Shown one piece after another: positions 1 to 18,889 of a DNA stretch of 21,829 bases. Both the position numbers and the translations under genes were made by a program. The stretch's first letter is position 1. Every line of letters starts with the position of its first letter. The notes under the pieces were generated by a model. The model did not search any database and had not been told where the DNA came from. It worked only from the letters and a program-made list of their open reading frames with translations. Source of the DNA: a virus. The DNA is taken from positions 1-21,829 of IMG/VR virus record IMGVR_UViG_3300025327_001678; one strand, written 5' to 3'.

Positions 1-366
1 CTCGCGCTTATATACACCGATAATCCTCTTGGGCATGAACGCGTCCCGTACCACCTTCCTTCCGCTGGACTTCCTGACCTTCACGGTTATGCCCCTGCTG
101 GTCCTGCGGGCGTCGAAGTGCTGAAGTCCCGGCGTCTTCCCCCTGTACCTAAGGAGCACGGCAAGGTTCTCCCACGTTGCCCGTCTCATGTAGAACCCGG
201 AGTCCAGGCGGTCCCGCTTGATGTTGTAGGTGTTCCGGACCTCGCGGCTTACGGCGGTCTTGGTCTGCGAGCCGAGCTTGTTGAGCACCCGCGTGGCAAT
301 CTTCTTGTACCTCTTGGGATCAAGGGCTTCCCTCAGCTCCTTGAGCCCCTTTACCTCAAACTGCAT
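1..366 (-). CDS. Minor tail protein Z-like protein (3' end cut by window edge)
   Basis: This is a partial gene; its C-terminus runs off the left end. The 122 visible codons begin MQFEVKGLKELREALDP and are rich in Lys and Arg, with the pattern VLNKLGSQTKTAVSREVR followed by YNIKRDRL. That pattern is typical of prophage minor tail protein Z and related HK97 gp10-like neck/tail-completion proteins, which act in virion assembly. The ATG at 366 overlaps the end of the upstream Mom-like gene by 16 bases, with GGAGAG just before it, so the two are co-transcribed. It shows that structural genes continue to the left of the window. An ORF on the plus strand across the same bases has no family resemblance and is a shadow. 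Family assignment comes from remembered sequence patterns. Confidence 0.72.
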   Translation of the reverse strand, partial: MQFEVKGLKELREALDPKRYKKIATRVLNKLGSQTKTAVSREVRNTYNIKRDRLDSGFYMRRATWENLAVLLRYRGKTPGLQHFDARRTSRGITVKVRKSSGRKVVRDAFMPKRIIGVYKRE

Positions 367-1103
367 ATACTCTCCTTGACTGGAGCGGAGTGCCGGAACC
401 GCCCCGACCCCTGGAGCCTGGGTAGCTCCCGGCTCTCTCTTGAGCCCTCCTCCGCCTCGATGACCCACTTCAAGTCCTTCCGCTTCGGGTAACCCAAAGA
501 CCAATCAAACGGCGACTCCCTCAGAAGCCTCTTTCTCTCCCCGTGCGAACATAGGAACCTCAGGTACCTGAACTGGTAGCCGCGCACCTTCGAAAGCCCG
601 AGCGCGAGCGTCACGGACTTCTTCCGGGTGCCGTACCGGGTGATGAGGAGCCTCGGATGTACGACCTCGCCTTCCCCGGTCATGTAGAACTCCGACCAGA
701 TGTGGCCGCCGTAGAGCCAGTTGGATGCCTGGTAGACATATCCGGGCTTTCCCCGGAGCCCGTCGGCCCAGCTGAAAAGGAGCTTTACGCCCGGCAAATG
801 CTCCCTGATGTATGCGGCCATCATGCCTAAAAAGAAGCTCTCCGTGTTCCTGGGCATGGAGTCGAGGACGCACAGGCGGTTGAGCTCGAGGTAGTCCCCC
901 ACGTCGAGGGAGGGGAAAATCCTCTTTATCGTGTGCCTGGGCCGCGTCCCGTATCCCCAGAGCGCCACCCCGACCAGGTCGTCGCCTGCGAAGAGGCCCA
1001 GTGAGAGCTTCGTTATGGGCGGGCAGATGACGGCGTAATGGTGTTGGGCCACGAACCTTTTCCCGACTGCGGTCGATATGGGTTGCACTTTCATGTCAAT
1101 CAC
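351..1103 (-). CDS. mom: Mom-family adenine modification protein (anti-restriction)
   Basis: Predicted homologue of phage Mu Mom, an acetyltransferase-fold enzyme that converts adenine in phage DNA to a methylcarbamoyl form resistant to many restriction enzymes. Seen in the sequence: KRFVAQHHYAVICPP near the N-terminus, LGLFAGDDLVGVALWG, YLELNRLCVLDSMPRNTES in the middle, and FSWADGLRGKPGYVYQASNW, the core pattern of the family in the right order. At 250 residues it is close to Mu Mom in size. The basic C-terminal 60 residues are less conserved. The GTG at 1103 has GAGG seven bases upstream; the ATG at 1094 is an alternative. No Com-like zinc protein, the translational activator of mom in Mu, is seen nearby. 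Its position between the replication genes and the structural genes suits expression before packaging. Confidence 0.82.
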   Translation of the reverse strand: MIDMKVQPISTAVGKRFVAQHHYAVICPPITKLSLGLFAGDDLVGVALWGYGTRPRHTIKRIFPSLDVGDYLELNRLCVLDSMPRNTESFFLGMMAAYIREHLPGVKLLFSWADGLRGKPGYVYQASNWLYGGHIWSEFYMTGEGEVVHPRLLITRYGTRKKSVTLALGLSKVRGYQFRYLRFLCSHGERKRLLRESPFDWSLGYPKRKDLKWVIEAEEGSRESRELPRLQGSGRFRHSAPVKESICSLR

Positions 1104-3419: not shown

Positions 3420-4139
3420 TTAAAACGGCGTCCCGTCGCCGGTGTCGTCTGTAGTCTCCTCATGGACTTGGATGTCCTTGGCCTTGGCGGAAAAGTCGTT
3501 CCACAACCGTTCGCAGAGGCTGTAATCCTCAGGGGTGGTGCTGCCGACCGGAACCACCTTGAAAACCGCGTAGGTGCCGATGTCATTAGTCTCCATCAGG
3601 GACATGAGCCTGTATTTCCTTGAGAACATGTCCCCCCCGCAGAACTTTGCCAGTGAAAGGAGCTGGCGCCCGGCCCTGTAGCTGGTCTTCGAGAAGCTAA
3701 CGATGACCGGCATGGGCACGCCCGGGAAGTACGAGAAGAAGTTAATGAACGTAGTCGCTATCGGTTTCTCCCCGTTCGGCCCAAAACGCGTCTCGGCAAC
3801 GACCTTCGGGTCCTCAGGGTCCGTTGACTTCCAGATGACCGCCCCCGGCTCGTAAGCCGGGTCGAAGCTGGGGTCGGCCTTGCTGCGCGGGTTGAAGCGT
3901 ATGAAGTTCTTGAACATGAATACCGGAATAAACTCATCGGGCAGCACCTCCTTGGTCAGGGAATTGATTATCGCGCCCGGCTTAACGCCGAGCCCTTCGG
4001 TAATCTCGGGCGATAGAGCCTGGATGAGCTTGGCGCGGGGTATAATGAGGTCTTCCTGTGTGATGCCGCTCTCGAACCCCCTCTGCCTGGAACCTCCGGC
4101 CAATGCCGACTCCGTTTTTCCTGCAAGCTCGTTTGCCAT
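3420..4139 (-). CDS. Probable phage single-stranded DNA-binding protein
   Basis: A 239-residue protein in the replication operon. The body reads as an all-beta fold with many aromatic and hydrophobic strands (PVFMFKNFIRFNP, TTFINFFSYFPGVPMPVIVSF). It ends in an acidic, flexible tail with a hydrophobic tip, ETTDDTGDGTPF, the hallmark of SSBs that recruit partner proteins through the tail. No OB-fold motif is provable by eye, so the role is inferred from tail and context. Of two nearby ATGs, the second (4139) is preferred: the AGGAGG at 4147-4152 is seven bases from it but only one base from the first (4145). A gp2.5-like or recombination-mediator role is an alternative. Confidence 0.6.
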   Translation of the reverse strand: MANELAGKTESALAGGSRQRGFESGITQEDLIIPRAKLIQALSPEITEGLGVKPGAIINSLTKEVLPDEFIPVFMFKNFIRFNPRSKADPSFDPAYEPGAVIWKSTDPEDPKVVAETRFGPNGEKPIATTFINFFSYFPGVPMPVIVSFSKTSYRAGRQLLSLAKFCGGDMFSRKYRLMSLMETNDIGTYAVFKVVPVGSTTPEDYSLCERLWNDFSAKAKDIQVHEETTDDTGDGTPF

Positions 4140-4151
4140 GGTCATGCCTCC

Positions 4152-4562
4152 TTAGTTGTTGTAGAGCCGTATCGACGGCTTCAGGTAATAGGTGATGCAA
4201 TCCGGAAGCTCAATGCCATGCTCTATGCATTCGCTCGTAAAACTCGACAGGCTCTGAGGCATGACGGTCGTCTTGATCAAGTCCTCGCGCTTTTGCTCGT
4301 TCAGGAACGCGAGCAACCTTTCCATGTTCTCCTGTCTGCAACTTGCATAGAGTCTCGGTTTTTGCATCTGCGCGTATCCCAGTCCCTCGTACCTGGCGGT
4401 GGATACCGCGGAATGCGCCTCCAGAAACTCGATGAGACGGGATTCGGACTGTTCGTATTCCTCCTGGGCGTTCTGGAGGCACTCTTTCAGATCGTCCCGC
4501 CTCTCCTTGGCCCGCTTGAACCGAAGGACCAAATCCCTCTCGGTCGCTTTCTCGTCTGACAT
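4152..4562 (-). CDS. Coiled-coil phage replication-module protein, function unknown
   Basis: A 136-residue protein with a strong ribosome site (AGGAGG seven bases before the ATG). Residues about 5-50 are highly charged and heptad-like (RFKRAKERRDDLKECLQNAQ and following), predicting a coiled coil. The C-terminal half is more globular and ends LPDCITYYLKPSIRLYNN. Its organisation resembles phage host-nuclease inhibitor (Gam) or Gp157-type small proteins found beside SSB genes, but the similarity is only architectural and I do not assign it. It sits 17 bases from the upstream 52-residue gene and 12 bases from the SSB-like start, in the same operon. Confidence 0.7.
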   Translation of the reverse strand: MSDEKATERDLVLRFKRAKERRDDLKECLQNAQEEYEQSESRLIEFLEAHSAVSTARYEGLGYAQMQKPRLYASCRQENMERLLAFLNEQKREDLIKTTVMPQSLSSFTSECIEHGIELPDCITYYLKPSIRLYNN

Positions 4563-6768: not shown

Positions 6769-8406
6769 ATGGGAAAAAAGAGCGAGGTTGTCCAGAAGAT
6801 TAGAAGGGCCTGTGGCCTGTATCTCCGCGTTTCCACGGAAATGCAGGCCATCATAAAAGAGGGCTCGCTGGATACCCAGCAAAGCACCCTTACCAAGTAC
6901 ACTGAGATAAAATCCAGCAACGGTGACGAAGAATGGTGTGTGGCCGAGGTCTACCGGGAAGAGGGGAGATCAGGCAAGAACACGGATAGGCCGGAATACC
7001 AGCGGATGCTTAAGGACATCAAGAACCGAAAGATAGATGTCCTTCTTTGCACAAAGATAGATAGGGTCCACCGGTCGCTTGTGGACTTCTACAAACTCCA
7101 CGAACTCCTCGAAGCCCACGAGGTGACCTTCGTATCTCTTAGCGAGAACTGGGACACCTCGACCCCGATGGGCCGCTTCGGACTGAAGCTGACCCTTGCG
7201 GTGGCTGAGCTCGAGCGTGAGCAGACATCCCAGAGGACGAAGGAAAAGATGAGGTGGCGGGCGGAGCAGGGCCTTAGAAATGGAGGACAGGTCTTCGGCT
7301 ACGATATAGACCCTGAAAACAGGGGGGTGCTCAAGGTAAACTCCGAGGAGGCCAAACTCATCCGCCTCATTTTCGAGACATACAGGGAACTCCGCTCCTT
7401 CAGGCGGACGGCTCAGAAGTTGAACGAGATGGGCTATCGGACAAAATCCTACCAATCAAGGCGAGGGCACATCCACGGTAACAAGAAATTCACTAAGTGC
7501 GCCGTTATCCATATCCTCCAAAATCCTGTTTACATAGGAAAGGTGACCCACTATGACAGCCTGTTCGATGGAAAGCATGATGCCATCATTGACGAACGGC
7601 TATGGCAGGATGTAAATGACCAGATGCGGGCGAATCGGGTTGTAAGGGCTAAGCCGAGAGAACAAAAGATGCATACGTTCTTATTGGAAGGTCTTATACG
7701 GTGCGGATGGTGTGGTGGGTATCTTACCCCAACTTACTCAGGCGGAAGGAACGGGACGTACTTCTATTACCAGTGTACTAAGGTGCATAACGGCGGTGAT
7801 GAGTGTAAGATGAAACGGGTAAGCGCCGAAGACATCGAAGAAGTAATCGCCAGACGCCTTATTGAGATGAGCAAAGACCAAAACCTCCTTACGGAAATTC
7901 TCGACGAGGCGGATACTGCATCAAGGAAGGAAAGGAAAATCCTTGAAGAGCGCCGAAATATCCAGAAGAGGGCGTTGGCTCCTATAGAGCAGGAGATCGC
8001 AAACATCGTCAAGTTCATAGCCCAAGGGAAAGGCTCGGCGGCCCTTTCGACAGAGATCGAACGCCTTGAGATTCAGAAGCAAGAGATAGAAGGGGAACTG
8101 GAGAGGATCGAGCTTGAGGCCAGAGAGCTTAAAAACAGGACTATAAGTGCGGAGGTTGTAAGCGAGGGGCTGGGATTTTTCGAGCAGGCATGGCAGGTTG
8201 CCACCCCGAAGCAGAGGAAGGATCTCATGCGGCTCCACGTCCACCGGATAATCTGGACGCCGGAGAAAATAAAAATGGGCCTCTATGCGAGACCCACGTC
8301 GGAAATGTATATAAAACCCACTGCCGTCAACCACTTGGGCGATTTCGCAGTGGATAGTATGAACTGGCTCCCCAAGTTTCCCGTCTTACTAACCGCAGTA
8401 AGATAG
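6769..8406 (+). CDS. Large serine recombinase (phage integrase)
   Basis: A 545-residue site-specific recombinase that would integrate and excise the phage. The resolvase domain begins with GLYLRVSTE, placing the nucleophile at Ser22, followed by LDTQQSTL, LLCTKIDRVHRS (92-103) and GRFGLKLTLAVAELERE (135-151). The Recombinase domain follows (GQVFGYDIDPE, LNEMGYRTKS, LQNPVYIGKV), then a zinc ribbon with Cys at 312, 315, 336 and 346, and a charged coiled coil at about 380-465. AGGAGG lies five bases before the ATG. It is the only clear phage gene on the plus strand, divergent from the early operon, the usual position of an integrase next to attP. The last 16 residues look unrelated to the family and may be read through from a frame change. 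Confidence 0.93.
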   Translation: MGKKSEVVQKIRRACGLYLRVSTEMQAIIKEGSLDTQQSTLTKYTEIKSSNGDEEWCVAEVYREEGRSGKNTDRPEYQRMLKDIKNRKIDVLLCTKIDRVHRSLVDFYKLHELLEAHEVTFVSLSENWDTSTPMGRFGLKLTLAVAELEREQTSQRTKEKMRWRAEQGLRNGGQVFGYDIDPENRGVLKVNSEEAKLIRLIFETYRELRSFRRTAQKLNEMGYRTKSYQSRRGHIHGNKKFTKCAVIHILQNPVYIGKVTHYDSLFDGKHDAIIDERLWQDVNDQMRANRVVRAKPREQKMHTFLLEGLIRCGWCGGYLTPTYSGGRNGTYFYYQCTKVHNGGDECKMKRVSAEDIEEVIARRLIEMSKDQNLLTEILDEADTASRKERKILEERRNIQKRALAPIEQEIANIVKFIAQGKGSAALSTEIERLEIQKQEIEGELERIELEARELKNRTISAEVVSEGLGFFEQAWQVATPKQRKDLMRLHVHRIIWTPEKIKMGLYARPTSEMYIKPTAVNHLGDFAVDSMNWLPKFPVLLTAVR

Positions 8407-8486: not shown

Positions 8487-8933
8487 GTGGAGATAGCCCT
8501 TGGCCCAAAGGGGGCGTTCGAGAACGGAAACATAGGAACTATCAAGCGGCAGGTGTTACCTGGCGGGGTGGTTAACGCAGTGCCGCCTCGGCTTTCAAAA
8601 CCAAGACCTCAGAAAAAACCCAAGACGCCAAGGGTGGCTGAACTGCTCAGGAAGGCAATGGAGTGGAAGGAACTTCTCGAATCAGGGAAAAGCGAAGGCG
8701 TCACCCAGGCTGACATAGCCAGACGCGAAGGGCTTTCCCGCGCCCGTGTGACTCAGATAATGGACCTACTCAACCTCGCCCCGGATATCCGGAAGTATAT
8801 ACTCGCCATGCCGGAAGCGACCCGGAGGTCCGTAGTCACAGAGCGGTCATTACGGCCTATCATGAAACTCGTTGAGCATAGGAAGCAACTGGGGGCGTTT
8901 TCGGTACTTAAGAATTCATTTTGTATTCCCTGA
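8487..8933 (+). CDS. HTH protein accompanying the serine recombinase (start uncertain, C-terminus possibly truncated)
   Basis: From a GTG the frame gives 148 residues: a basic Pro/Lys stretch (about 33-48), PRVAELLRKAMEWKELLESG (48-67), then a clear helix-turn-helix, VTQADIARREGLSRARVTQI (72-91), and LLNLAPDIRKYILAMPE. Such ORFs commonly follow serine recombinases and have a ParB/KorB-like HTH; DNA binding is expected. The frame stays open back to 8358, and the upstream peptide KIAEPEVWFRIVHVTPED looks like genuine protein, so translation may begin earlier, perhaps by a -1 shift from the recombinase. The final residues LKNSFCIP lie in the overlap with the convergent res gene and look like replacement sequence at an insertion boundary. 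Confidence 0.72.
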   Translation: MEIALGPKGAFENGNIGTIKRQVLPGGVVNAVPPRLSKPRPQKKPKTPRVAELLRKAMEWKELLESGKSEGVTQADIARREGLSRARVTQIMDLLNLAPDIRKYILAMPEATRRSVVTERSLRPIMKLVEHRKQLGAFSVLKNSFCIP

Positions 8934-11595
8934 AACCACTAATCAATTGCCGGAATGAGGTGGGCTTGAACTTATCAAAACTTTCTTGATCCACGTAAAC
9001 AAAATCATACTGAACGTCTGACTGTGCCCGATTGACATCCTCACACCATTGCCGCAGCCTTTGCATCTTCAAGGGCACATCCAGATCTTCTTGACCTTTG
9101 GTTTCAACAATGAAAATCCGCTTGTTGGCCAGCTTTACCAGAAAATCAGGGTAGTAGTTTGAGATGTCACCGTCCGCGTTAACATAGTCTACCTTGAAAT
9201 GAACCGCCATATAATTCTTAGCATAGGAAGCTACGTCATCGCAGTTTTCCAGGAAGTTGGCGAAGATTAACTCTAAATGGCTGTCTCCGATGATGCGGTT
9301 GAAGACGCTTTTTTTTGGTATGAGATATCCCTGATCCTTAGTCACGAATGGGCGTGTATGCCTCAACTTAATGGTATCGCGGATTTCGGCATCGCCCTTG
9401 TCCTGGATTGTAAGGGAGTTGATCGCCTTTTTGAGCGTCTCTACCAGGGTTTTGGTGGCAACCAGCTCCGACAAGTTGCGAAGCGTGTTAGGGCTTTCCA
9501 GTTCCACCGTGCGCTCAAATAACTGTTCTTGAACAAACGCCTTGATCTTCCCATACAGCACGTCGTAGCCGCTGACCAGGCGCAGATCTCTCATGATGGT
9601 CTGCGCGAAGTAAGCAATTACACTGCGGTAATCAGCAACACCAGCCGTGTCGAGTATGGTGGTGTGCGTCACCTCGCCTGTGGTAATGTCCTTAAAAACA
9701 ATCTCCCGCTGTTCTTCCTCACTGAACTGTTGGTAGGTCACATGCTTATGCCCCAGTGCGCTAATGTCCAGCGCGCACAGGTTCTTGTATTCCCGGTAAA
9801 CGCGCGGCGTCAGCACTGGGATTTCAATGTCCAGCGCCTCAATGTCTTTTTTGGCGTTTTCCTTGTCGATCTCCACCACCAGTGGAGTTTTGGCCTGGGT
9901 GCCTTCGCCCATCGGTTTGCGCTCCAGCACAACACCTTCAGCCTGGATGGATTCCACGAAATCCATAAAGGCGTTCGTGCCAACCACGCTGACGTATTCT
10001 TCCACACCGCCGGGGTACATCTTGCGCAAGCCACGCCCCAAGGTCTGCTCTGGCAGAATATTGCTCTTGGCGGAATAGGCGCGAAGGCCCACAATGGTTG
10101 TAACGTTACGCACGTCCCAGCCCTCTTTGAGCATCATCACGGAGATGATGGCCTTGTATGGGCTGTCCATTCCGTCAATCTCATTGGCCTGCGCACGAAG
10201 CTTATTCAATTCCTCTTTGCTCTTGCCAGATGTCGATTCGGAAATGTCACCGTTTTTATTGGTATGAATTACCAGCACTGCGTCTTTCATATCGGGATAG
10301 TTAGCTTCAAGGTATTCGGCCACATCATCACAATTGCGGGTGTCGTCGGTCATTACAAATAAAATGGCTTTTTTGTCCAACTTTTCATGTTCCGCATAAG
10401 CCTTCCGCCATTCGATCACGCCCAGGTGAATATAATCGGCATATTTCTCGGTATACTTGGCGCTCTGGCGTTCCTCCAGCTTGGCACGACTGGCGGCATC
10501 GGGCAGGACCGGGTGCTTGACTACATTTTGTGAGATGGCTTCTACCAGTGGATAATCGGCTACGGTCTGAACGAAAATCGCGCCGTTGTTGTGTTTGGGC
10601 GTTGCGGTAACGTCCACCTGCAGAGAAAGTGCGGACCCTTTTTGCTTCAGACGGTTATGGATGTCTTCGATGGATTTGAACCACGCCATCCGAGGGTCGT
10701 GAATATGGTGCGCCTCGTCGTTCAAGACCATCAGTTCGTCAATATCGCGCACGATCATGCCCAAATCCACCTTGGATTCAGTGGTCGTACCGCTGGGCCG
10801 CTTGCCGAGGAAATAATCCATCGTATCCTCATCATCTGGCGAAGGGGGAATTTCGTTGCCGGTATATACGCGGTGGATGTTCGTCAGAAAGATGTTACCG
10901 GCATGGCGGGTAACGCGCACATCGTCTTGCACGTGCAGGGTCAGTTGAAAATCGTCGCGCCAGTTGCGCCCGTCAACGCCGTTGTCCGGGATGATCGGGT
11001 CCTCAAAAAAGATGCGTAGGCCCTTAAAATCTTTATATATGCGGTCAAGCACGATAATATTGGGGGCGATAACCAGAAAATTGCGGGCCAGCCCCGAATC
11101 AGGCTCGTACAGCTTGTGATAAAAACTCCAGGCCAGCGCCAGGCTCATTACTTTGGTTTTGCCGGAGCCAGTTGCCATTTTCACCACGAAACGTCGCCAT
11201 GTCTCATCAAACATCCCCGCCGAGACCGCGCCGGAGCTGTCGAAGCGCATCAGGTCGAACTTGTCCTTCACCTCAACTACATCATACAGGTAGATGATGG
11301 TCTCCAGTGCCTCGCGTTGCGCAAAGTAATACCGAAACTCGGCCATTGTGCCGTCTGCCTGGGGAAGTAGGTGCGGTGTCTTGAACCACCAGTTCAGCAG
11401 GCTCTTGCTCGTATCCGTTGCCCCCGTATAGCCGCTGTCCCGCCATTCCTTTACTTTTTTGCGTAGCTGTGCCACCAGCGGTGGCATCAGTTTTTCAGAG
11501 CTTGTATCCCGAAGAGCTTCATCTGCCGGGAACCAGCGGATGGCCGGGTCGAGGATGGCGTGGGGTGATATGGGAAAGTGAGGATGGAGTGCCAT
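8908..11595 (-). CDS. res: Type III restriction enzyme Res subunit
   Basis: An 895-residue restriction subunit that uses ATP to translocate or slide on DNA and cleaves at a distance from unmodified sites, in complex with Mod. Motifs: MATGSGKT Walker A (140-147), LNDEAHHIHD with DEAH at 293-296, TATP (330-333), GWDVRNV and LGRGLRKM in the second helicase lobe, and a C-terminal PD-(D/E)XK nuclease, YYPDF plus IVETKG, with D817, E831 and K833 as likely catalytic residues. All motifs look intact. It is the last gene of the operon, starting 12 bases after the preceding stop. Its 3' end overlaps the convergent HTH ORF by 26 bases, which marks the island edge. Confidence 0.94.
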   Translation of the reverse strand: MALHPHFPISPHAILDPAIRWFPADEALRDTSSEKLMPPLVAQLRKKVKEWRDSGYTGATDTSKSLLNWWFKTPHLLPQADGTMAEFRYYFAQREALETIIYLYDVVEVKDKFDLMRFDSSGAVSAGMFDETWRRFVVKMATGSGKTKVMSLALAWSFYHKLYEPDSGLARNFLVIAPNIIVLDRIYKDFKGLRIFFEDPIIPDNGVDGRNWRDDFQLTLHVQDDVRVTRHAGNIFLTNIHRVYTGNEIPPSPDDEDTMDYFLGKRPSGTTTESKVDLGMIVRDIDELMVLNDEAHHIHDPRMAWFKSIEDIHNRLKQKGSALSLQVDVTATPKHNNGAIFVQTVADYPLVEAISQNVVKHPVLPDAASRAKLEERQSAKYTEKYADYIHLGVIEWRKAYAEHEKLDKKAILFVMTDDTRNCDDVAEYLEANYPDMKDAVLVIHTNKNGDISESTSGKSKEELNKLRAQANEIDGMDSPYKAIISVMMLKEGWDVRNVTTIVGLRAYSAKSNILPEQTLGRGLRKMYPGGVEEYVSVVGTNAFMDFVESIQAEGVVLERKPMGEGTQAKTPLVVEIDKENAKKDIEALDIEIPVLTPRVYREYKNLCALDISALGHKHVTYQQFSEEEQREIVFKDITTGEVTHTTILDTAGVADYRSVIAYFAQTIMRDLRLVSGYDVLYGKIKAFVQEQLFERTVELESPNTLRNLSELVATKTLVETLKKAINSLTIQDKGDAEIRDTIKLRHTRPFVTKDQGYLIPKKSVFNRIIGDSHLELIFANFLENCDDVASYAKNYMAVHFKVDYVNADGDISNYYPDFLVKLANKRIFIVETKGQEDLDVPLKMQRLRQWCEDVNRAQSDVQYDFVYVDQESFDKFKPTSFRQLISGFREYKMNS

Positions 11596-11607
11596 AATAG
11601 TATCTTC

Positions 11608-12438
11608 CTATAACAAAGATAGTTGTGGCGATGTGGGAGGATAAAACACGCCAATAATAACAAACGGATTCTTTGCCCAGCCGTGGAATTGGCGAGTTGT
11701 TCCTAAGAAAAGAAAAAGTTCCTTCCTGGAAAATTCATCGAAGTATTTTTTCCTGACAAGTTCAAGCGCTTTATCTTCATTACCCTCAGACTGCTTAAGG
11801 CAATTCCAAAATAAAGCACCTATTTCCCAATCCTCAATCATCAGTGTGCTTGCTTTCCCTGTGCAGTCCTTGAATCGGTAAGAGAACTTATACGGCAACT
11901 TTTTAACTATTAAAAACTCCTTTTTAACTTCATCTTCTGATTGGAATAAGGAAAGCTGACTTGCCTTTGCTTTTAGAATTTTCAGGCTGTCTTGGTCCCA
12001 TTCGCGCTCTGTTTGCTCAACCACGAATTCTACCAACTCCGCAGGTTTGAAGATCGCAAGTGAAAGTTTATTGCTATGGGCCTTTTTTATCAAGGCGGCT
12101 AAATCCGTGTAAACCTCGTTTTTCGCAAAAATAATTTTTTTCCGTTCAGCCCATGCCTGCTCTGTCCCCACGGGTTTGTCAATTAACTGAAGCTTGGAAA
12201 TATCCGTAATCTTATAACTCTCCGGCCGGGGATCGCTGGAGTTCCTTACTAAAGGTAGTTCCATCCATTGGTATTTCATGTATCTGTTTTCATAATCCAA
12301 ATTCCTGAACGGCAGGGGGTAAACACGAGCCCAGCTTCCATCGTCAAGAATGCCCGCCGTGCAAACCAGCTCGGCATATTTCGTTGAAAGAGTGGGGTAG
12401 GTTTTTACAGTAATGAACAGCCGTCGCACAGCACTCAT
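11608..12438 (-). CDS. Partner of the DUF488 protein in the R-M operon, unknown function
   Basis: A 276-residue protein beginning MSAVRRLFITVKTYPTLSTK. The N-terminal third (ELVCTAGILDDGSWARVYPL, FRNLDYENRYMKYQWMELPL) is beta-rich with conserved-looking aromatics. The middle is helical and charged, and the C-terminal half has FSYRFKDCTGKASTLMIEDW and FLFLGTTRQFHGWAKNPF, suggesting a second beta domain. I recall proteins of this type beside DUF488 genes in defence regions but no function. Its ATG overlaps the DUF488 stop as ATGA, so the two are translationally coupled. The region is visibly AT-rich compared with mod and res (one 60-base line counted at 42% GC), suggesting separate origin. No catalytic motif recognised. 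Confidence 0.75.
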   Translation of the reverse strand: MSAVRRLFITVKTYPTLSTKYAELVCTAGILDDGSWARVYPLPFRNLDYENRYMKYQWMELPLVRNSSDPRPESYKITDISKLQLIDKPVGTEQAWAERKKIIFAKNEVYTDLAALIKKAHSNKLSLAIFKPAELVEFVVEQTEREWDQDSLKILKAKASQLSLFQSEDEVKKEFLIVKKLPYKFSYRFKDCTGKASTLMIEDWEIGALFWNCLKQSEGNEDKALELVRKKYFDEFSRKELFLFLGTTRQFHGWAKNPFVIIGVFYPPTSPQLSLL

Positions 12439-13331
12439 AGATGAATGGCCTCGATGCCCTTGGCATGCTCCATATATTCACTGATACAATGCCGGTGGCA
12501 CGAGTCATGCTGTTTCTCGAAACAGGTCAACGCAATACGGTTGAACTGGTCAAACAATTCGCTAAGTTTTTTTAGGCTTTCCTTTTTCTGATGCAAATAT
12601 TTTCTATAGGCATCGAAAAGCTGCGCATAATCAGACTCCGTTTCGAGATCATTTCTATTTTCTGAGGCTATGCCCAATTCAGGAATATGGATGTAATCAA
12701 TGCCCAGTTTCGGCAAGAGATGGCTCAAACTACCTTTTGAAAAACCAAACTTTCTGCTTAAGGGATTTCTCCGGACATCGCACAAAAGGCGCACGTCATG
12801 ACAAATCAGCTTATTGATATATTTCTCGAAAGACAGCCCTTCGTAGCCGATAGTAAAAAGCTCCATAGCCTTCGACTTTAATTTTTCCCCTGCATGGATA
12901 ACGGCTTCATACGAATGCTTCTCCAGAATATTTTCTGCAATCTTGCTGTGTATGGCATAGTAGGGATAACGCTCATACACATGACGCACTAATTCGGTTC
13001 CTCTGTAGTCTTTATATTTTTTTGTGAAAAGGCTGGCTCTATTCAATTCATCGCTCGCCATACCAGCGGTTGACTTTTCCAGCAATTGAATGTCATTCCC
13101 CTCTGTGTGCAGCCAACCTCTGGATTCTAACAGTTCAATATCTGATTGAGCCTGGAACGAGTAGCATCCGTAGTGATAAGGAACGAAATCGTAATACGGG
13201 CTTTCATCCTCTTGCTGCGATAAAAATAACAGCTTCTGAAGATCCATCTTAGACAGTTTTCCCCCTGCCAGTTCTAAAAGAACCAGTAGAAATCGTTGTC
13301 TATGGTATTTAGGATTTATCGGTTTTGTCAT
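12435..13331 (-). CDS. Panacea-like (DUF4065) N-terminal domain fused to DUF488
   Basis: A 298-residue fusion. Residues about 5-80 (LVLLELAGGKLSKMDLQKLL, then YDFVPYHYGCYSFQ and LESRGWL) resemble the SocA/Panacea (DUF4065) domain found in antitoxins and defence proteins. From 158 onward is DUF488: FTIGYEG (159-165), LLCDVRRNPLSRKFGFSKG (182-200), and the ending TCFEKQHDSCHRHCI (269-283), whose Cys/His cluster is typical of the family. DUF488 proteins are poorly understood and are linked by context to nucleic-acid processing and defence. Both overlaps are ATGA: with mod upstream and with the unknown partner downstream. It therefore belongs to the restriction operon as an accessory component rather than a chance neighbour. 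Confidence 0.8.
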   Translation of the reverse strand: MTKPINPKYHRQRFLLVLLELAGGKLSKMDLQKLLFLSQQEDESPYYDFVPYHYGCYSFQAQSDIELLESRGWLHTEGNDIQLLEKSTAGMASDELNRASLFTKKYKDYRGTELVRHVYERYPYYAIHSKIAENILEKHSYEAVIHAGEKLKSKAMELFTIGYEGLSFEKYINKLICHDVRLLCDVRRNPLSRKFGFSKGSLSHLLPKLGIDYIHIPELGIASENRNDLETESDYAQLFDAYRKYLHQKKESLKKLSELFDQFNRIALTCFEKQHDSCHRHCISEYMEHAKGIEAIHL

Positions 13332-15637
13332 ATAGTCACCTCGACAATCGTCATGGTATCATTCCCGAAGATATCCACCACCTTCACCGCGAGCTTCCGC
13401 CGCCCTGGCGGACATTCATGGAATACGCTGGTCAGTTCCAGGGTCCGGTCTTTTTTGGTGCGGAAGGATTGCCATTCGTTCTCGAATACATAGTCGCCTG
13501 TCCAGACCTCTTCATAATCATCAAACTTTAACTGTGTCGGCTCCACGCCGCCGTCCAGTCTCTGTTGTGCCATTTGCTCTTTCGGTTTTCTTATTATCTC
13601 CTTCTTACTTTCAAAATTAAAATCCACCGCCCAGTAATCAATCCAGTCCGTCCATTTTTTCGTGAGTTGTTCGCGGCTGATAATGCCGTCTTTGTCCTTG
13701 CTCACCTTAATGATCTGCCCCTTCTCCACTACGATCTTGCTGGCCTTATCCTTGAGCGTAGCTTCGGCGGCGGCGATGGAGTCCTGCGAATAGAAGACCG
13801 AGAAGTCAGTAAGCTCCACGGCCACGCTGTTCTTTTTGACGTGCGGTTTTACCTCGATAAAGGAGACATCGTGGAAGACCACCTGGTTCTTTTCCACTGC
13901 CCGCTTGTCAAAGACTTCGGCTGGGATGTATTTGGGGGCGATGTCTATGCCCTTGGCGCGAGCTTCTTCAAGCACGTGGGGGAATAGCCCCATCTCGAAC
14001 TCGAAGCCAAGAATGTCTATGCGGGTGATGTGTTTCTTGCGGCATTCAAGGATCACCTCTTCCACGAAAAGGCGCGTTACAGGTAGATTGACCGGCCCAA
14101 CCGACACCAGCCTCCCCGCCTTCTTGCCGTGGAAGGTGGCGAAGCCTGTCGTCCTTTCGGCGCGGTAGGCTCGCAAGATAAGGTCAATAAAAGCCGCTTC
14201 CTTTTCAGCCAATTGTTTTGCCTGCTCCGCTTCGCGGAGGTTAGGGTTTACGCCGATATAGTGCTGACGCTCGTATTTGCCAAGGTTAAGAACCTCAAAG
14301 GCGCGGTAGTCCTTGCCTTCGGCCTTGAGTTGCCGCTGAACGCCGATCATGCGCTTGCGCGTGGTGTGTATGGCGAATTTGCCGAGGTCGGTTGCAATCC
14401 ACCTGCGGCCAAGCTTTTCGGAAACTGCCGCCGTGGTGCCGGAGCCGCAGAAAAAGTCGGCGATGAGGTCGCCTTCGTTGCTGCTGGCTTTGATGATGCG
14501 CTCAAGAAGGGCTTCGGGTTTTTGAGTTGCATAACCAAGCCTCTCAATTGCCTGTGGGTTAATGGGAGGGATAGAATCCCAAAGTGACTGAATTGGGCGT
14601 CCTTCCCATTCGTCCAAGTACTGTTTTCGTTGGATTCGTTGAGTTTTTAACTTCGGAAAGACCAGTTTTCCTTCCGACTCCCATCGCTTCATGGTTTCGA
14701 TTGAGCAAGACCAGCCAGTTCTTGGCGGCTGGTAACCCTTGTACTCGTAGATTAGTGTCGGGCTATATGATGGACTGACAATTGGACTCAAGCGGTATCG
14801 ACGTCCCTTGTCATCTGAGTACTTAAATCGCTCTTCAACATAATCTTCAGCACCCTCTTTCGTTACCGGTGGAGCGAAGACGTAATTCTCAGTTTTTACG
14901 TAGAACAGAATGGAGTCTGTCACAACTCCAAATTGCTTGGATTGCGCTAGGACGCCAGATCGTCGTTTCCAGACTATTTCATTGATCAAACTGTCTTTTC
15001 CGAAAACCTCATCACATACGAGACGTATATGTGAGTTTGCACGCCAATCACAATGCACATAAATGCTCCCATCCTCAGCCAACAAATCACGCATCAGCAC
15101 GAGCCGTTCATAGATCATGGCGATAAATGAATCCGCGCCCTTGCCCCATGTGTCGCGGTAGGCTATCTCTTCCAGGATGTTCGGCCGTTTGGTGAAGGTG
15201 TCGCCACCAATTTCGATATCCATGCTGAAATCAGCGCCAACGTCGAAGGGTGGGTCAATGTAAATGAGTTTAAGGCCGCCCTGCTTTTCGATCTCCTCGC
15301 GCAGCGGCCCATTCTTAAGGGAAGATAATATGAGCTTGTTGTCGCCCCAGATGAGCTTGTTCGTCCAGCCCTTTAGTTGTCTACCACGGTTGTCGGTGGC
15401 AAATAGGTCGCCTATTAGCGGCTTGTCCTCCGGCTTCTCGGCGCGAGGTTCATCCACTTGCTCTATCACCTGAAAAGGTAGGACGATGTTACAGACCTCG
15501 CCAGTCTTGCCGTTCCAGACCAGTTCCACCTCGCGTTTTTCCTCGAACAGCAGAAAGCGAAACTTATCCGGCAGGGGCTTGCCTGCCTCAACATAGCGAA
15601 TTATCTCTTGTTTTTCTTGATCGGTCAATCGCGGCAT
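13328..15637 (-). CDS. mod: Type III DNA methyltransferase Mod subunit (N6-adenine, beta class)
   Basis: A 769-residue methyltransferase that recognises DNA for both modification and restriction. Motif IV DPPF (128-131) precedes motif I ADFFCGSGTT (393-402), the beta-class order of Type III Mod proteins. The usual DPPY is DPPF here. The segment between them (about residues 225-385) holds the target-recognition domain; its DNA (about 14480-14960) is more AT-rich (two lines counted at 45% GC) than flanking mod sequence (53-67%), hinting at domain exchange. The start at 15637 is preferred to the longer reading from 15685: GGGAG precedes it and the best promoter overlaps the extra 16 codons. It is longer than EcoP-type Mod and begins a four-gene operon. 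Confidence 0.93.
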   Translation of the reverse strand: MPRLTDQEKQEIIRYVEAGKPLPDKFRFLLFEEKREVELVWNGKTGEVCNIVLPFQVIEQVDEPRAEKPEDKPLIGDLFATDNRGRQLKGWTNKLIWGDNKLILSSLKNGPLREEIEKQGGLKLIYIDPPFDVGADFSMDIEIGGDTFTKRPNILEEIAYRDTWGKGADSFIAMIYERLVLMRDLLAEDGSIYVHCDWRANSHIRLVCDEVFGKDSLINEIVWKRRSGVLAQSKQFGVVTDSILFYVKTENYVFAPPVTKEGAEDYVEERFKYSDDKGRRYRLSPIVSPSYSPTLIYEYKGYQPPRTGWSCSIETMKRWESEGKLVFPKLKTQRIQRKQYLDEWEGRPIQSLWDSIPPINPQAIERLGYATQKPEALLERIIKASSNEGDLIADFFCGSGTTAAVSEKLGRRWIATDLGKFAIHTTRKRMIGVQRQLKAEGKDYRAFEVLNLGKYERQHYIGVNPNLREAEQAKQLAEKEAAFIDLILRAYRAERTTGFATFHGKKAGRLVSVGPVNLPVTRLFVEEVILECRKKHITRIDILGFEFEMGLFPHVLEEARAKGIDIAPKYIPAEVFDKRAVEKNQVVFHDVSFIEVKPHVKKNSVAVELTDFSVFYSQDSIAAAEATLKDKASKIVVEKGQIIKVSKDKDGIISREQLTKKWTDWIDYWAVDFNFESKKEIIRKPKEQMAQQRLDGGVEPTQLKFDDYEEVWTGDYVFENEWQSFRTKKDRTLELTSVFHECPPGRRKLAVKVVDIFGNDTMTIVEVTI

Positions 15638-15753: not shown

Positions 15754-15783
15754 TTAGTCTGTCCCCCTTATCTTCTCCGCCGT
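15754..15783 (-). repeat. Holin 3'-end remnant C
   Basis: Read on the minus strand this encodes TAEKIRGTD followed by a TAA stop, matching the end of the intact holin at 18046-18078 (TAEKIRGSE, stop). Flanking bases remain similar for a few positions after the stop (AGGCT..AAA). It lies between the mod promoter and the HNH gene and has no holin body upstream. It is interpreted as a scar of an older holin terminus. Confidence 0.75.
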
Positions 15784-15876
15784 CGCCATCCCAGACTCGT
15801 TCTCAAGATGAAGGTCCAGCATGAAAACCGGGCCTTTACTTCTGAGATTTGGTGGGTTACGCTAACCGATATAAAA

Positions 15877-16614
15877 ATGAACTGCATATTCTGCAACAAA
15901 CCAGCCGCAGGCTCATCGGTGAGTCACATCCTGCCAGCTTCTCTGGGGGGACAGGAATGGGCGTGTCTTCCTGACGGTCTCGTCTGTAAACAATGCAACC
16001 AGTACTTCGGTGAGAAAATCGAGAAGCTCGCTCTTAGTAGTTTTCCATTTTTACCTTTTCGCGTTCTTCTTGGAATCCCCACCCAGAAGGGAACGTCTCC
16101 TAAGATGTCTACCCGCATTGGCACTGTCAAAGGAAGTTTAAGACCTGGCCAGATTGGGATTGATCCGGCATCGCCAGAAGTTGAGGAAGCTTTACAGGCA
16201 GGCAAGATTACGCAAATGCGCATTATTGCCGAGCCGACTGAACCAACTGCTGTGTGCAGGATGTTAGTTAAGATGGGGCTTGAGGTGGTTGCACGAGATT
16301 CGCCTGATGATGCTAGAAAAAAGAAGTTTGATTCAGCTAGAGTGTTTGCACGAAACCCTGTAAGAGGGACCCATTGGTGGTTTGTGATTAGCACGAGCCA
16401 CGAATTATTGTTTTCACGTTTCCTGAATGGAATATCGACTAAAGATTGGGTAGCCGGAGTAAATCTATCGGTATATCAATTTGACGAATTTGAGGCGTTC
16501 CGACTTCAGCTTCTCGACATGATTATCTTCACTCCTTTGGACGGTTGGGTTCTTCCACCTGACATGAAAGAATTTCCTGAGTCAGATTATAGGCTGTTCC
16601 GGGTGAAAATATAG
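15877..16614 (+). CDS. HNH endonuclease
   Basis: A 245-residue protein with an N-terminal HNH/treble-clef nuclease: MNCIFC (Cys3, Cys6), SHILPASLGG (His17 in the catalytic position), then LVCKQCNQYFG (Cys37, Cys40, Asn41), resembling the HNH_5 type. The remaining 200 residues are a helical/beta region with no recognised motif, probably DNA-binding or specificity. The frame stays open upstream to 15700, but those codons run across holin remnant C and have no protein character, so I start at 15877, just before the Cys motif, although no good ribosome site is seen. It could be a homing-type nuclease, a defence nuclease or a standalone restriction enzyme; the neighbouring remnants make mobility plausible. 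Confidence 0.82.
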   Translation: MNCIFCNKPAAGSSVSHILPASLGGQEWACLPDGLVCKQCNQYFGEKIEKLALSSFPFLPFRVLLGIPTQKGTSPKMSTRIGTVKGSLRPGQIGIDPASPEVEEALQAGKITQMRIIAEPTEPTAVCRMLVKMGLEVVARDSPDDARKKKFDSARVFARNPVRGTHWWFVISTSHELLFSRFLNGISTKDWVAGVNLSVYQFDEFEAFRLQLLDMIIFTPLDGWVLPPDMKEFPESDYRLFRVKI

Positions 16615-16640
16615 CCGTGTAGTGTTGGCAACGCCGATCA

Positions 16641-16691
16641 TTACCTTAAGACTCTCTCCGCTCCCCTTATTTTCTCCGCCGTCCTCCCCAG
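16641..16691 (-). repeat. Holin 3'-end remnant B
   Basis: On the minus strand 16691 to 16656 encodes LGRTAEKIRGAE, then ERVLR-like codons to a TAA at 16641. Against the intact holin end (LGRTAEKIRGSE), the codons for LGR, TAEKIRG and E differ only synonymously (for example AAG/AAA, ATT/ATA, AGA/AGG), with one Ser-to-Ala change. Similarity stops abruptly before Leu. The fragment sits directly upstream of the GIY-YIG gene and appears to be a remnant from a diverged phage. Confidence 0.78.
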
Positions 16692-16723
16692 GGCTGTGGG
16701 AAAAACAAAATGACAGGATCGAG

Positions 16724-17617
16724 ATGAACCTGAATGATCTATTTCTCAGCAAGGGCATTGATTCGCAGCAGGTTCTTGTGTTCCGGCATAGGCCTCACGA
16801 GCCTGAACTCAACAAGGTTTTGCCGTGGCTGGCTGCGGAGAAACCAGATGTATTCAACGCTTACCAACAGACGCAGGGCGAAAAGCTCGAGAAGGCCATG
16901 AGTGTCATGAAGGGTGCTGGCTATGTTGCGTCTTTTATCGGGCATGAACCTGGAAAAGCCCTATTCGTAGGTTTATATTCAATAGGGGAATCAAAGCCTC
17001 TTACTCGCGACGAATACTGGCGGGTCCCTGCCTATATTGAGATGAAAGCGTTTGGCATGAAGGGATTTACCAAGGAGGAATCGCGCACATCCATTCTATG
17101 GTTCGAACTTGCATTGACGGATTTCTACGCTGCCTGGAAAGGCAAACTGATAGTAAGCTGGCCGCCGCCCGAACGGTCCTGGTGGCGTCGGGCGCATCGC
17201 AATGAAATACCCATTCTTGCCATACTAGAAGACAGCGCCCTTGATGCTGCGATGCCGGAATGGGATGAGATAGTATTCACTTGGGAGGAGCTTGGCATCC
17301 TTCCGACGCGCTGGAAATCAGCACTTTCAGCACTTTCACAATGGCGCAGTATTTACTATATATTCGATATTTCTGACGGAAAAGGTTATGTTGGTTCTGC
17401 TTATGGTGAAAGCAATCTTCTCGGTAGATGGTTAAACTACGCTGCGCGTGGACACGGAGGAAATTGCCTGCTTAGACAGCGCGACCCAAGGAACTTCCGA
17501 TTTAGCATTCTACAGCGAGTTTCGCCGGACATGGATGCCCGAGACGTTATCCGTCTGGAAGGCACATGGAAGGAACGACTCCATACGCGTGAGCCGTCTG
17601 GCCTTAATGACAACTAA
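16724..17617 (+). CDS. GIY-YIG nuclease family protein
   Basis: A 297-residue protein with a C-terminal GIY-YIG nuclease: IYYIFDISDGKGYVGSAYGE (210-229), RW at 235-236, then RFSILQRVSP, LEGTWKERLHT with Glu279, and the terminal GLNDN. The N-terminal 200 residues form a conserved partner region (LPWLAAEKPDVFNAYQQTQG, WPPPERSWWRRAHRNEIP, WDEIVFTWEELG) seen in a family of about 300 residues whose role I do not know. The ATG at 16724 has AGGA upstream and begins right after holin remnant B; the frame upstream crosses the remnant and is rejected. A tandem 9-base duplication at 17320-17337 adds an extra Ala-Leu-Ser. It may cut foreign DNA or promote its own transfer. Confidence 0.85.
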   Translation: MNLNDLFLSKGIDSQQVLVFRHRPHEPELNKVLPWLAAEKPDVFNAYQQTQGEKLEKAMSVMKGAGYVASFIGHEPGKALFVGLYSIGESKPLTRDEYWRVPAYIEMKAFGMKGFTKEESRTSILWFELALTDFYAAWKGKLIVSWPPPERSWWRRAHRNEIPILAILEDSALDAAMPEWDEIVFTWEELGILPTRWKSALSALSQWRSIYYIFDISDGKGYVGSAYGESNLLGRWLNYAARGHGGNCLLRQRDPRNFRFSILQRVSPDMDARDVIRLEGTWKERLHTREPSGLNDN

Positions 17618-17667
17618 TCGGCTAATTTTCTTTCAACCAGCCAGGCGGGTGGGCATCGGAGTTGATA

Positions 17668-18012
17668 ATGCGTCCTAAGATTTTCGACCTTCTATTAAAG
17701 GACGACAGAATGTTTGTCCTTGAGGTATGCCCAGTAACGACAAGAAGCCTGACGTCGAACGAACCGGAAAAACAAGAATGGGCAGTGATTATCCGTCGCA
17801 ATGTGCCCGGTTATCCGCCGCACAGATCGGATGACTTTCCAACCAAGGCAGAGGCAATCGAATATTATAAAAAAGTAGTCATTGAGACGCCGCGGGTGAG
17901 TTTAGGTAACAAATCTCCAGTTCCCCCTCCAACAGTTGAGGCGTATATATCGTGGTTGGTAACGGAAAATCTTTATGACCCAATCCTCAACCCTAGTGCT
18001 CCAGTTCCGTAG
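17668..18012 (+). CDS. Conserved hypothetical protein after GIY-YIG (114 aa)
   Basis: The protein starts MRPKIFDLLLKDDRMFVLEV and includes EWAVIIRRNVPGYPPHRSDD, then PTKAEAIEYYKKVV and NLYDPILNPSA near the end. GGAG seven bases before the ATG at 17668 favours this start over the TTG at 17662. A compact alpha/beta protein is expected. It lies 50 bases downstream of the GIY-YIG gene on the same strand and may be its partner. It ends 33 bases from the convergent holin stop, with no strong terminator between. No function recognised. Confidence 0.65.
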   Translation: MRPKIFDLLLKDDRMFVLEVCPVTTRSLTSNEPEKQEWAVIIRRNVPGYPPHRSDDFPTKAEAIEYYKKVVIETPRVSLGNKSPVPPPTVEAYISWLVTENLYDPILNPSAPVP

Positions 18013-18045
18013 GGTGCGCTCGACCTACCATTTTTATTTAAAGCC

Positions 18046-18471
18046 TCACTCCGATCCTCTAATCTTCTCCGCCGTCCTCCCCAAGATGTAGCCTCCCACG
18101 CCTATCTCCATGAGCGTCCAGAGTTTGTCCGGCAGGTCGAGGACCCTGACCTTGTCTGTGAAGATTGAGAGGTAAGGATAGAGGATGTAGTTGTTTGCCA
18201 CGATTACAATGATGACCAGCATAAGTAGCGGCCTCCAGTTCCTCTGGAGCCAGCTCTGGCCTTGGGTTTCGGCCATGATGACCTTCGAGCGTGCCTCGGT
18301 TATGGACTTGTCGAGCTCTGCGTAGCGGAGCTCAAGTTCGGCCTTCTTTTCCGGAGGAAGGTCGCCGGTTATGGCCTCCCTTAGCTTTATGGCCGCGTCT
18401 CCCACGCCGTTGAGCGTGGCGCTTACCCCGGCGGCGGTCGTTCCCCCAAGTAAATCGCTAAGCAAGCCCAT
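18046..18471 (-). CDS. Holin, 3TM GTA-type
   Basis: A 141-residue membrane protein of the phage/GTA three-TM holin type. The N-terminal 65 residues are charged and helical (DLPPEKKAELELRYAELDKS). SWLQRNWRPLLMLVIIVIVA begins the first clear membrane segment (about 75-103), and LWTLMEIGVGGYILGRTAEK provides the C-terminal one. It would form membrane lesions at the end of infection to release the endolysin. GGAGG lies six bases before the ATG, and the gene overlaps the endolysin end by 14 bases. Its last 13 codons (18046-18084) are the intact version of the sequence found as remnants B and C in the cargo island. Confidence 0.85.
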   Translation of the reverse strand: MGLLSDLLGGTTAAGVSATLNGVGDAAIKLREAITGDLPPEKKAELELRYAELDKSITEARSKVIMAETQGQSWLQRNWRPLLMLVIIVIVANNYILYPYLSIFTDKVRVLDLPDKLWTLMEIGVGGYILGRTAEKIRGSE

Positions 18472-18889
18472 TCTTCGCCTCCTTCCACAAATCGAGAACC
18501 CGGTTGACCCATCCCCTGAGATACGCCTGGGCCGCGAGACGTGACCCGGCGAGGTTACTGTAATGCTCCATCCTCAAGAATAGATAGTCCGTCCAGTTGA
18601 AGGCCTTTCCTTTGAGCGTTGTTGCCCTCGACAATCCGAGGTTCACGCAGGAGTCGAAGTGGACAAGGCACATGGGCCACTCAAGAGCGCCGCACCCGGC
18701 CCGGTCCCAGTAGTCTTTGCGATAAATCATTTTGGCGTCCTCGATGGAGAGGTTCTTGATGTTAAGCAGTGGGTAGGCCCGCTTTGAAATCCCGTACTTG
18801 GTTTCCCCTCCAGGATCGCGCGGGTCGTTCACGTACCCGCCCTCATGCCTGAGGACGAAAACAAAGCACCTTTCGAAGTTGTCGCTCAC
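18458..18889 (-). CDS. Endolysin, GH108-type muramidase
   Basis: A 143-residue cell-wall hydrolase. FVFVLRHEGGYVNDPRDPGG (9-28) with Glu16 is the catalytic signature of glycoside hydrolase family 108 N-acetylmuramidases, followed by ETKYGISKRAYP. The C-terminal half (CLVHFDSCVNLGLS, LAAQAYLRGWVNRV) matches the associated peptidoglycan-binding region. The GTG at 18889 is chosen because it overlaps the upstream stop as GTGA and gives the normal family start; the longer ATG reading to 19003 lies wholly within the upstream gene in another frame. It is slightly shorter than typical family members but shows both domains. No signal peptide, so release depends on the holin. Confidence 0.85.
   Translation of the reverse strand: MSDNFERCFVFVLRHEGGYVNDPRDPGGETKYGISKRAYPLLNIKNLSIEDAKMIYRKDYWDRAGCGALEWPMCLVHFDSCVNLGLSRATTLKGKAFNWTDYLFLRMEHYSNLAGSRLAAQAYLRGWVNRVLDLWKEAKNGLA

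Follow-up and report, generated by a model that had tools for sequence, protein, structure and literature searches.

The window, meaning the whole stretch of DNA analysed here, is a linear viral record, 21,829 bases long. Its minus strand carries tail genes, a GH108 endolysin and a holin in this order, and cargo genes follow behind the holin. Past the cargo lie a large serine recombinase on the plus strand, the sole recombinase in the window, and then helicase and primase genes. The features of the locus are as follows, with A, B and C denoting three copies of the holin 3' end:

18458..18889, minus: endolysin, glycosyl hydrolase 108 (PF05838, E 7e-25; phrog_315), upstream of the holin and overlapping it
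18046..18471, minus: intact holin, GTA_holin_3TM, 141 aa (PF11351, E 3e-14; phrog_3427 holin)
17662..18012, plus: 116-aa ORF of the A-B cargo block, convergent with the holin; Pfam, PADLOC and PHROGs all gave no match
16724..17617, plus: UzuA homologue ('GIY-YIG' gene) of the A-B cargo block (PADLOC UzuA PDLC03973, E 1.4e-75, full length); no Pfam match
16641..16692, minus: copy B, orphan holin 3' end LGRTAEKIRGAE, without its stop; the range includes about 14 nt of 3' flank that are conserved
15877..16614, plus: HNH_5 endonuclease-family gene of the B-C cargo block (PF14279, E 8e-11), convergent with B
15754..15794, minus: copy C, orphan holin 3' end TAEKIRGTD-stop, with a 2-nt insertion after LG
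13328..15637, minus: type III-like DNA methyltransferase (PF01555, E 4e-43; MTase_III PDLC03633, E 3e-109)
8908..13331, minus: rest of the third cargo block, namely DUF488/PDC-M19A (12435-13331), PDC-M19B (11608-12438) and a ResIII-type protein (8908-11595)
8487-8933, plus: ParB-HTH protein (PF17762), far side of the cargo
6769-8406, plus: large serine recombinase (phrog_95 integrase, E 7e-114; PF00239/PF07508), far side of the cargo

At the left end of the window (351-1103), a Mom-family protein of the phage DNA-modification type was found (PF25680, E 5e-46). Two early genes (3420-4145 and 4152-4562) are family matches to phage Pam3 gp34 and gp33. Just beyond the primase gene (1200-1272), there are two 29-nt direct repeats, 44 nt apart, at 86%.

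All three holin 3' ends lie on the minus strand. Copy A (18046-18084; 18034-18084 with its 3' flank) encodes LGRTAEKIRGSE-stop. Copy B encodes LGRTAEKIRGAE at 16656-16691 and has lost its stop (TGA to AGA), and copy C encodes TAEKIRGTD-stop at 15754-15783. Positions, strand and peptides were the same in a preliminary description, which read B and C as holin remnants. Both start at the LGR codon. A and B form the strongest direct repeat in the whole window (50 nt at 82%), with a longest exact identity of 19 nt and a similarity that extends about 14 nt beyond the stop codon.

We compared this similarity with 300 dinucleotide shuffles of the window, using holin ends of other genomes as queries and masking the intact holin. 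B reached 42.1 bits (E 1.4e-7, query C117 of genome G011) and C 38.2 bits (E 4e-6, query G325), while the best shuffle over all queries reached 30.2 bits. The holin gene itself matched B at E 2.4e-9 (blastn). With profile R1, which was built with B among its sequences and without C, the scores were 95.6 bits for A, 25.8 bits for B and 16.0 bits for C, falling with distance from the holin.

The codons of A and B showed four synonymous differences and one nonsynonymous difference (p 0.008 for random substitutions). The same twelve residues as in B are encoded by the fragment C109a of G011, a groundwater Deltaproteobacterium, with five synonymous and no nonsynonymous differences (p 0.0009). A second G011 fragment, C117, also encodes LGRTAEKIRGAE, again with only synonymous differences. 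As B differs from C109a only synonymously and from A in four of five cases, it descends from a holin under selection, which agrees with the earlier proposal. The codon test of C against A gave p 0.06, which is not significant, C being too short for significance. The stop of C, noted before as kept, and its 3' flank match G325. Thus, B has both the register of the holin 3' end and the codon constraint, and C has the similarity. Read from the sequence, both B and C derive from the genuine 3' ends of holins, and of different alleles: B carries the KIRGAE allele, also present in G011, and C the GTD allele. A terminator or promoter role of the scars was considered and rejected, as a scan performed no better than on shuffles.

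A search for holin ends matching B and C found the B allele in G011 and the junction of C with the methylase in G325, a genome of the same class as the groundwater Deltaproteobacterium L048. G325 has an orphan holin end that encodes TLMEIGVGGYILGRTAEKIKGTD-stop; behind it come a stretch homologous to the region behind C and then the same type III methylase start. C together with the DNA upstream of the methylase aligned to G325 in two segments, one of 149 nt at 69% identity (E 1e-12) and one of 43 nt at 86%. G327 also has this methylase, but there it follows a host gene that by eye resembles yebC, and no holin end is present. The presence of the methylase with the holin end in one genome and without it in the other means that the junction is a real joint. 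This joint was probably made once and now stands in two contexts, a phage and a chromosome. The holin part of C is shorter in the window than in G325, as expected if the HNH block arrived later and cut into C.

The cargo falls into three blocks: the UzuA homologue with the 116-aa ORF (A-B), the HNH_5 gene (B-C) and, beyond C, the type III-like methylase, PDC-M19A (DUF488), PDC-M19B and the ResIII protein. The preliminary description had two nuclease cassettes bounded by holin ends. The bounding holds; the number does not, C bordering a third block. Moreover, its 'GIY-YIG' cassette contains the UzuA homologue and a further ORF. UzuA, as its PADLOC name also indicates, belongs to a described defence system, Uzume. 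Judged by family names, most of the cargo appears to be defence-related. Genes of defence type lie between the lysis genes and the integrase, and their composition is unlike that of the phage core (GC 42-51% in the cargo vs 56-57%). The cargo genes between A and C are oriented against the holin, and the block behind C is oriented with it.

The content behind the holin is different in the relatives L048 (holin 86% identical to that of the window), L049 and G306. In two phages of the annotated collection, HS6 and ctOsX528, this holin family occurs within an operon without cargo. No homologue of UzuA was found in 62 genomes of the host class, and the HNH protein had a single weak match among them. 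The viral contigs yielded no relative when queried with the tail, integrase and HNH proteins. A DNA pattern used on the same contigs gave a single match (L047), which was discarded as unrelated and lying inside another coding gene. About 90 nt behind the intact holin of L049 (10519-10550), a possible second holin end reads GGRSVEKITRAVWGG-stop; its profile E value of 0.72 is not significant.

The 62 genomes of the L048 class were searched with the holin protein and with profile R1. They contained three intact holins, one partial gene (G319) and, spread over seven genomes, 11 orphan 3' ends called with confidence. Some of the orphan sequences had gone into R1; 8 of the 11 were first found with the window protein alone. 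The sample consists mostly of metagenome assemblies, and the orphans C45, G325 and G329 lie at contig ends. In all 11 cases, the 3' side was kept and the 5' side was missing. Most orphans start at codons 107-120 of 141 and one near codon 128, and these chromosomal ends are short (about 20-35 codons). As controls, the tail protein (693 aa) and the endolysin (136 aa) of L048 were searched in the same genomes and gave long homologues and weak noise. The only short control piece of high identity (G329 C49) was a tail gene fused to a holin end by deletion.

Of the 11 orphan ends, five lie next to genes that are clearly of the defence or toxin-antitoxin kind:

G328: PIN
G332: GNAT and ParE
G011 C117: polymerase-beta-type/HEPN pair, PDC-M05
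G011 C124 (L238, 7454-9885): type II methylase and restriction enzyme, directly behind the orphan end
G325: type III methylase

At C109, an AbiEii match stayed below the threshold, and no defence or toxin-antitoxin neighbour was recognised at C45, G320, G336, G329 and C109b. Ten genes further off on the same contigs, there was no full-length defence match, and three matches shared a domain. By eye, the orientation of the neighbouring genes looks non-random.

Several observations stand beside this count. At L163 (G011:C109) and L158 (G011:C45), the holin end is followed by a palindrome and, by eye, by a stretch like the C-terminus of a RAYT transposase (RLDRILTAKPRGRPRKEDAK-stop), and this arrangement is repeated within the genome. 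Two copies of the repeat have palindromic inserts in common. Weak holin-end matches in G333, G334 and G312 (L239, L240 and L242) have a common 5' flank upstream of one host gene (MAYRLKEAEFRAIA...); given this shared flank, they may go back to an old insertion that was inherited vertically. Profile matches outside the class, in a phylum-wide search, were set aside as other holins. G384 and G707 looked like orphan ends but were not counted, as each has an intact lysin gene followed by a holin that has lost an internal part.

Arrays comparable to that of the window stand in Ignavibacteria, a second phylum. In L058, the order is holin, AbiEii/AbiEi, type VI retron reverse transcriptase and a 177-nt holin 3' copy. 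This copy is 92.7% identical to the holin of G229 and 90.0% to the neighbouring holin, which is a small difference. In L068, the holin is followed by a 15-codon holin end, AbiEii and DUF6577, a degenerate second holin copy and type III restriction genes. The second copy lies inside a 607-nt repeat of the holin region (88% identical), which ends at the stop codon, and an integrase (PF00589) lies near the array. In each array, the holin homology stops at or near the stop codon. Further holin ends stand alone in G003 and G229. At L170 and L175 (G229 and G198), an element near tRNA-Thr comprises an M15-like peptidase (by eye), a TM gene and the holin, then AbiE, TIR or patatin cargo. No capsid genes were recognised in this element, and two of its conserved proteins had no Pfam match.

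From these data, we propose that the stretch from the holin stop to the integrase is an accessory defence locus that has the holin end as its fixed border and was built by serial recombination leaving scars. The probability of this reading is put at about 0.58; the shares given to all explanations are a matter of judgement. Incoming DNA with a related holin allele and its own defence cargo would recombine within the resident holin or close to it. The new holin end would restore a working lysis gene, and the new cargo would be placed behind it. The far-side joint would fall within the old holin 3' end, which is then superfluous and would be kept as a scar. Two rounds would lead to the order A, UzuA, B, HNH, C and type III island, so that scars would be older the further they lie from the working holin. 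The sequence of these steps, a recombination mechanism and any benefit from the cargo are all inferred. Recombination between related phages or prophage remnants is the likeliest route.

The preliminary description had already suggested a repeated gain of cargo at the holin end, with the old termini left behind. This part is the best supported one, by the ends of holin alleles, the G325 junction and the other arrays; homologous recombination in every step was not observed. Searches yielded no relative in an intermediate state (holin, HNH, C), no recipient phage and no donor of UzuA or the HNH gene, and none of the window's genes was identified as a Rad52-type phage recombinase. Relaxed recombination is documented between temperate phages and defective prophages and works with homology that is short and diverged (De Paepe et al. 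2014, PMC3945230). The longest A/B identity of 19 nt is below the Red-beta minimum quoted there (23-27 bp), although the true donors may have been closer. Our case is similar to that mosaicism in that DNA comes from remnants across short diverged homology, and one of the regions tested there spans lysis genes. That study is based on experimental crosses in E. coli and leaves holins unmentioned in its main text, whereas the window holds end products only (PMC3945230).

The shortness of the chromosomal scars (about 20-35 codons) is what agrees least with serial recombination, and neither simple random recombination nor decay predicts it. Many scars are chromosomal, some of them at tRNA or tmRNA genes, so prophage decay or an integrase-type displacement could produce part of the pattern. 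Owing to the shortness of the chromosomal scars, both keep some probability, which is low in either case. If prophages decayed after integration at a tRNA or tmRNA gene, all but the useful cargo between the holin and the attachment site would be deleted and the last stretch of the holin left; a phage would later acquire such remnants in tandem. Indeed, L048 ends at a tmRNA gene with a single gene between it and the holin, and the G319 remnant consists of a partial holin, cargo and tmRNA. In G011 C117 and G336 C12, tRNA-Ser at one and the same host locus is followed by cargo, and this by an orphan holin end. Such sites suggest that prophages of this kind have their cargo at the end on the holin side, which keeps decay alive for the chromosomal scars. 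The same sites led us to reject a phage attachment site in the holin end as the main reading, since L048 and G319 border tmRNA and C117/G336 tRNA-Ser; a duplicated tmRNA end was not found in the L048 contig. However, random deletions should often spare most of the holin or the lysis genes, nearly all orphans are only 20-35 codons long and no such pieces come from tail and endolysin genes. In addition, the array of the window lies inside a phage genome, beside its integrase. We therefore consider decay an unlikely source of the array.

At E. coli icd, icdC is a 3' end displaced at an integration target. In a similar way, cassettes could insert site-specifically at the holin end, with an integrase of their own or one acting in trans; each would bring its own end copy, keep the holin intact and leave the former end at the far side. 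The likeness lies in a copy of a gene end, short and truncated at its 5' side, that is found past an insertion which has made the gene whole again. One holin end per cassette, the LGR start of both B and C, several chromosomal ends starting near codons 107-120, scarring that is specific to this 3' end and absent for tail and endolysin genes, and integrases near L068 and in the window all agree with it. Unlike icdC, the window cassettes carry no integrase and the target is a phage gene. The scar borders do not share one start: on the 5' side they vary across about 75 nt (roughly codons 107 to 131), and the Ignavibacteria have longer copies of 177 and 607 nt. No common core is recognisable, and the 3' flanks vary among sites. 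Hence, such displacement is improbable as the general explanation. Integron arrays hold short genes mostly in one orientation, a repeated separator, toxin-antitoxin or defence cargo and the oldest unit furthest from the anchor. These traits recur here, with the oldest unit placed as proposed above, but the separators are remnants of a coding gene and no integron integrase was found. The broader view of the holin 3' end as a recurrent integron-like insertion site for small defence or toxin-antitoxin cassettes, each with one holin end that restores the holin and the newest unit next to the functional copy, for phages from two or more bacterial phyla, is distinctly doubtful. A short repeat of the REP/RAYT type, with a hairpin after the holin stop that mobilises the adjoining holin end, is very unlikely. 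Its palindrome-bearing 3' flank is common to G328, G011 C45, C109a/b, G336 and A, and in G011 it continues into the transposase-like stretch seen by eye; but B, C, G325, C117 and G320 lack the palindrome, and the Ignavibacteria scars stop at the stop codon. Least credit goes to a chance resemblance or to homing by the HNH and GIY-YIG genes, which both encode nuclease-type proteins: the similarity is above all 300 shuffles, and comparable sites are not nuclease-specific, carrying AbiE, reverse transcriptase, restriction-modification or toxin-antitoxin genes.

Prophage defence hotspots are already known, and cargo exchange has so far mostly been inferred from gene content. As outlined for the core defence hotspots of Pseudomonas aeruginosa (PMC10250203) and the defence islands of E. 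coli (PMC10121019), variable, GC-poor defence genes lie between conserved border genes, as they do in the window. Unlike in these outlines, the 3' end of the border gene recurs here as orphan fragments between cargo blocks. The exchange has left ordered marks, namely scars from which the earlier holin allele and the joint can be told. Such scars make the history of a hotspot readable and allow a direct test of recombination against site-specific insertion. They are also a sequence tag for finding loci of this kind without an annotated conserved border gene. The similar arrays in groundwater Deltaproteobacteria and Ignavibacteria suggest either a shared habit of phages with this holin as their last late gene or a shared mechanism. 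As the same scars recur in several bacterial genomes, the holin end looks, from sequence comparison, like a border at which defence genes are exchanged time and again.
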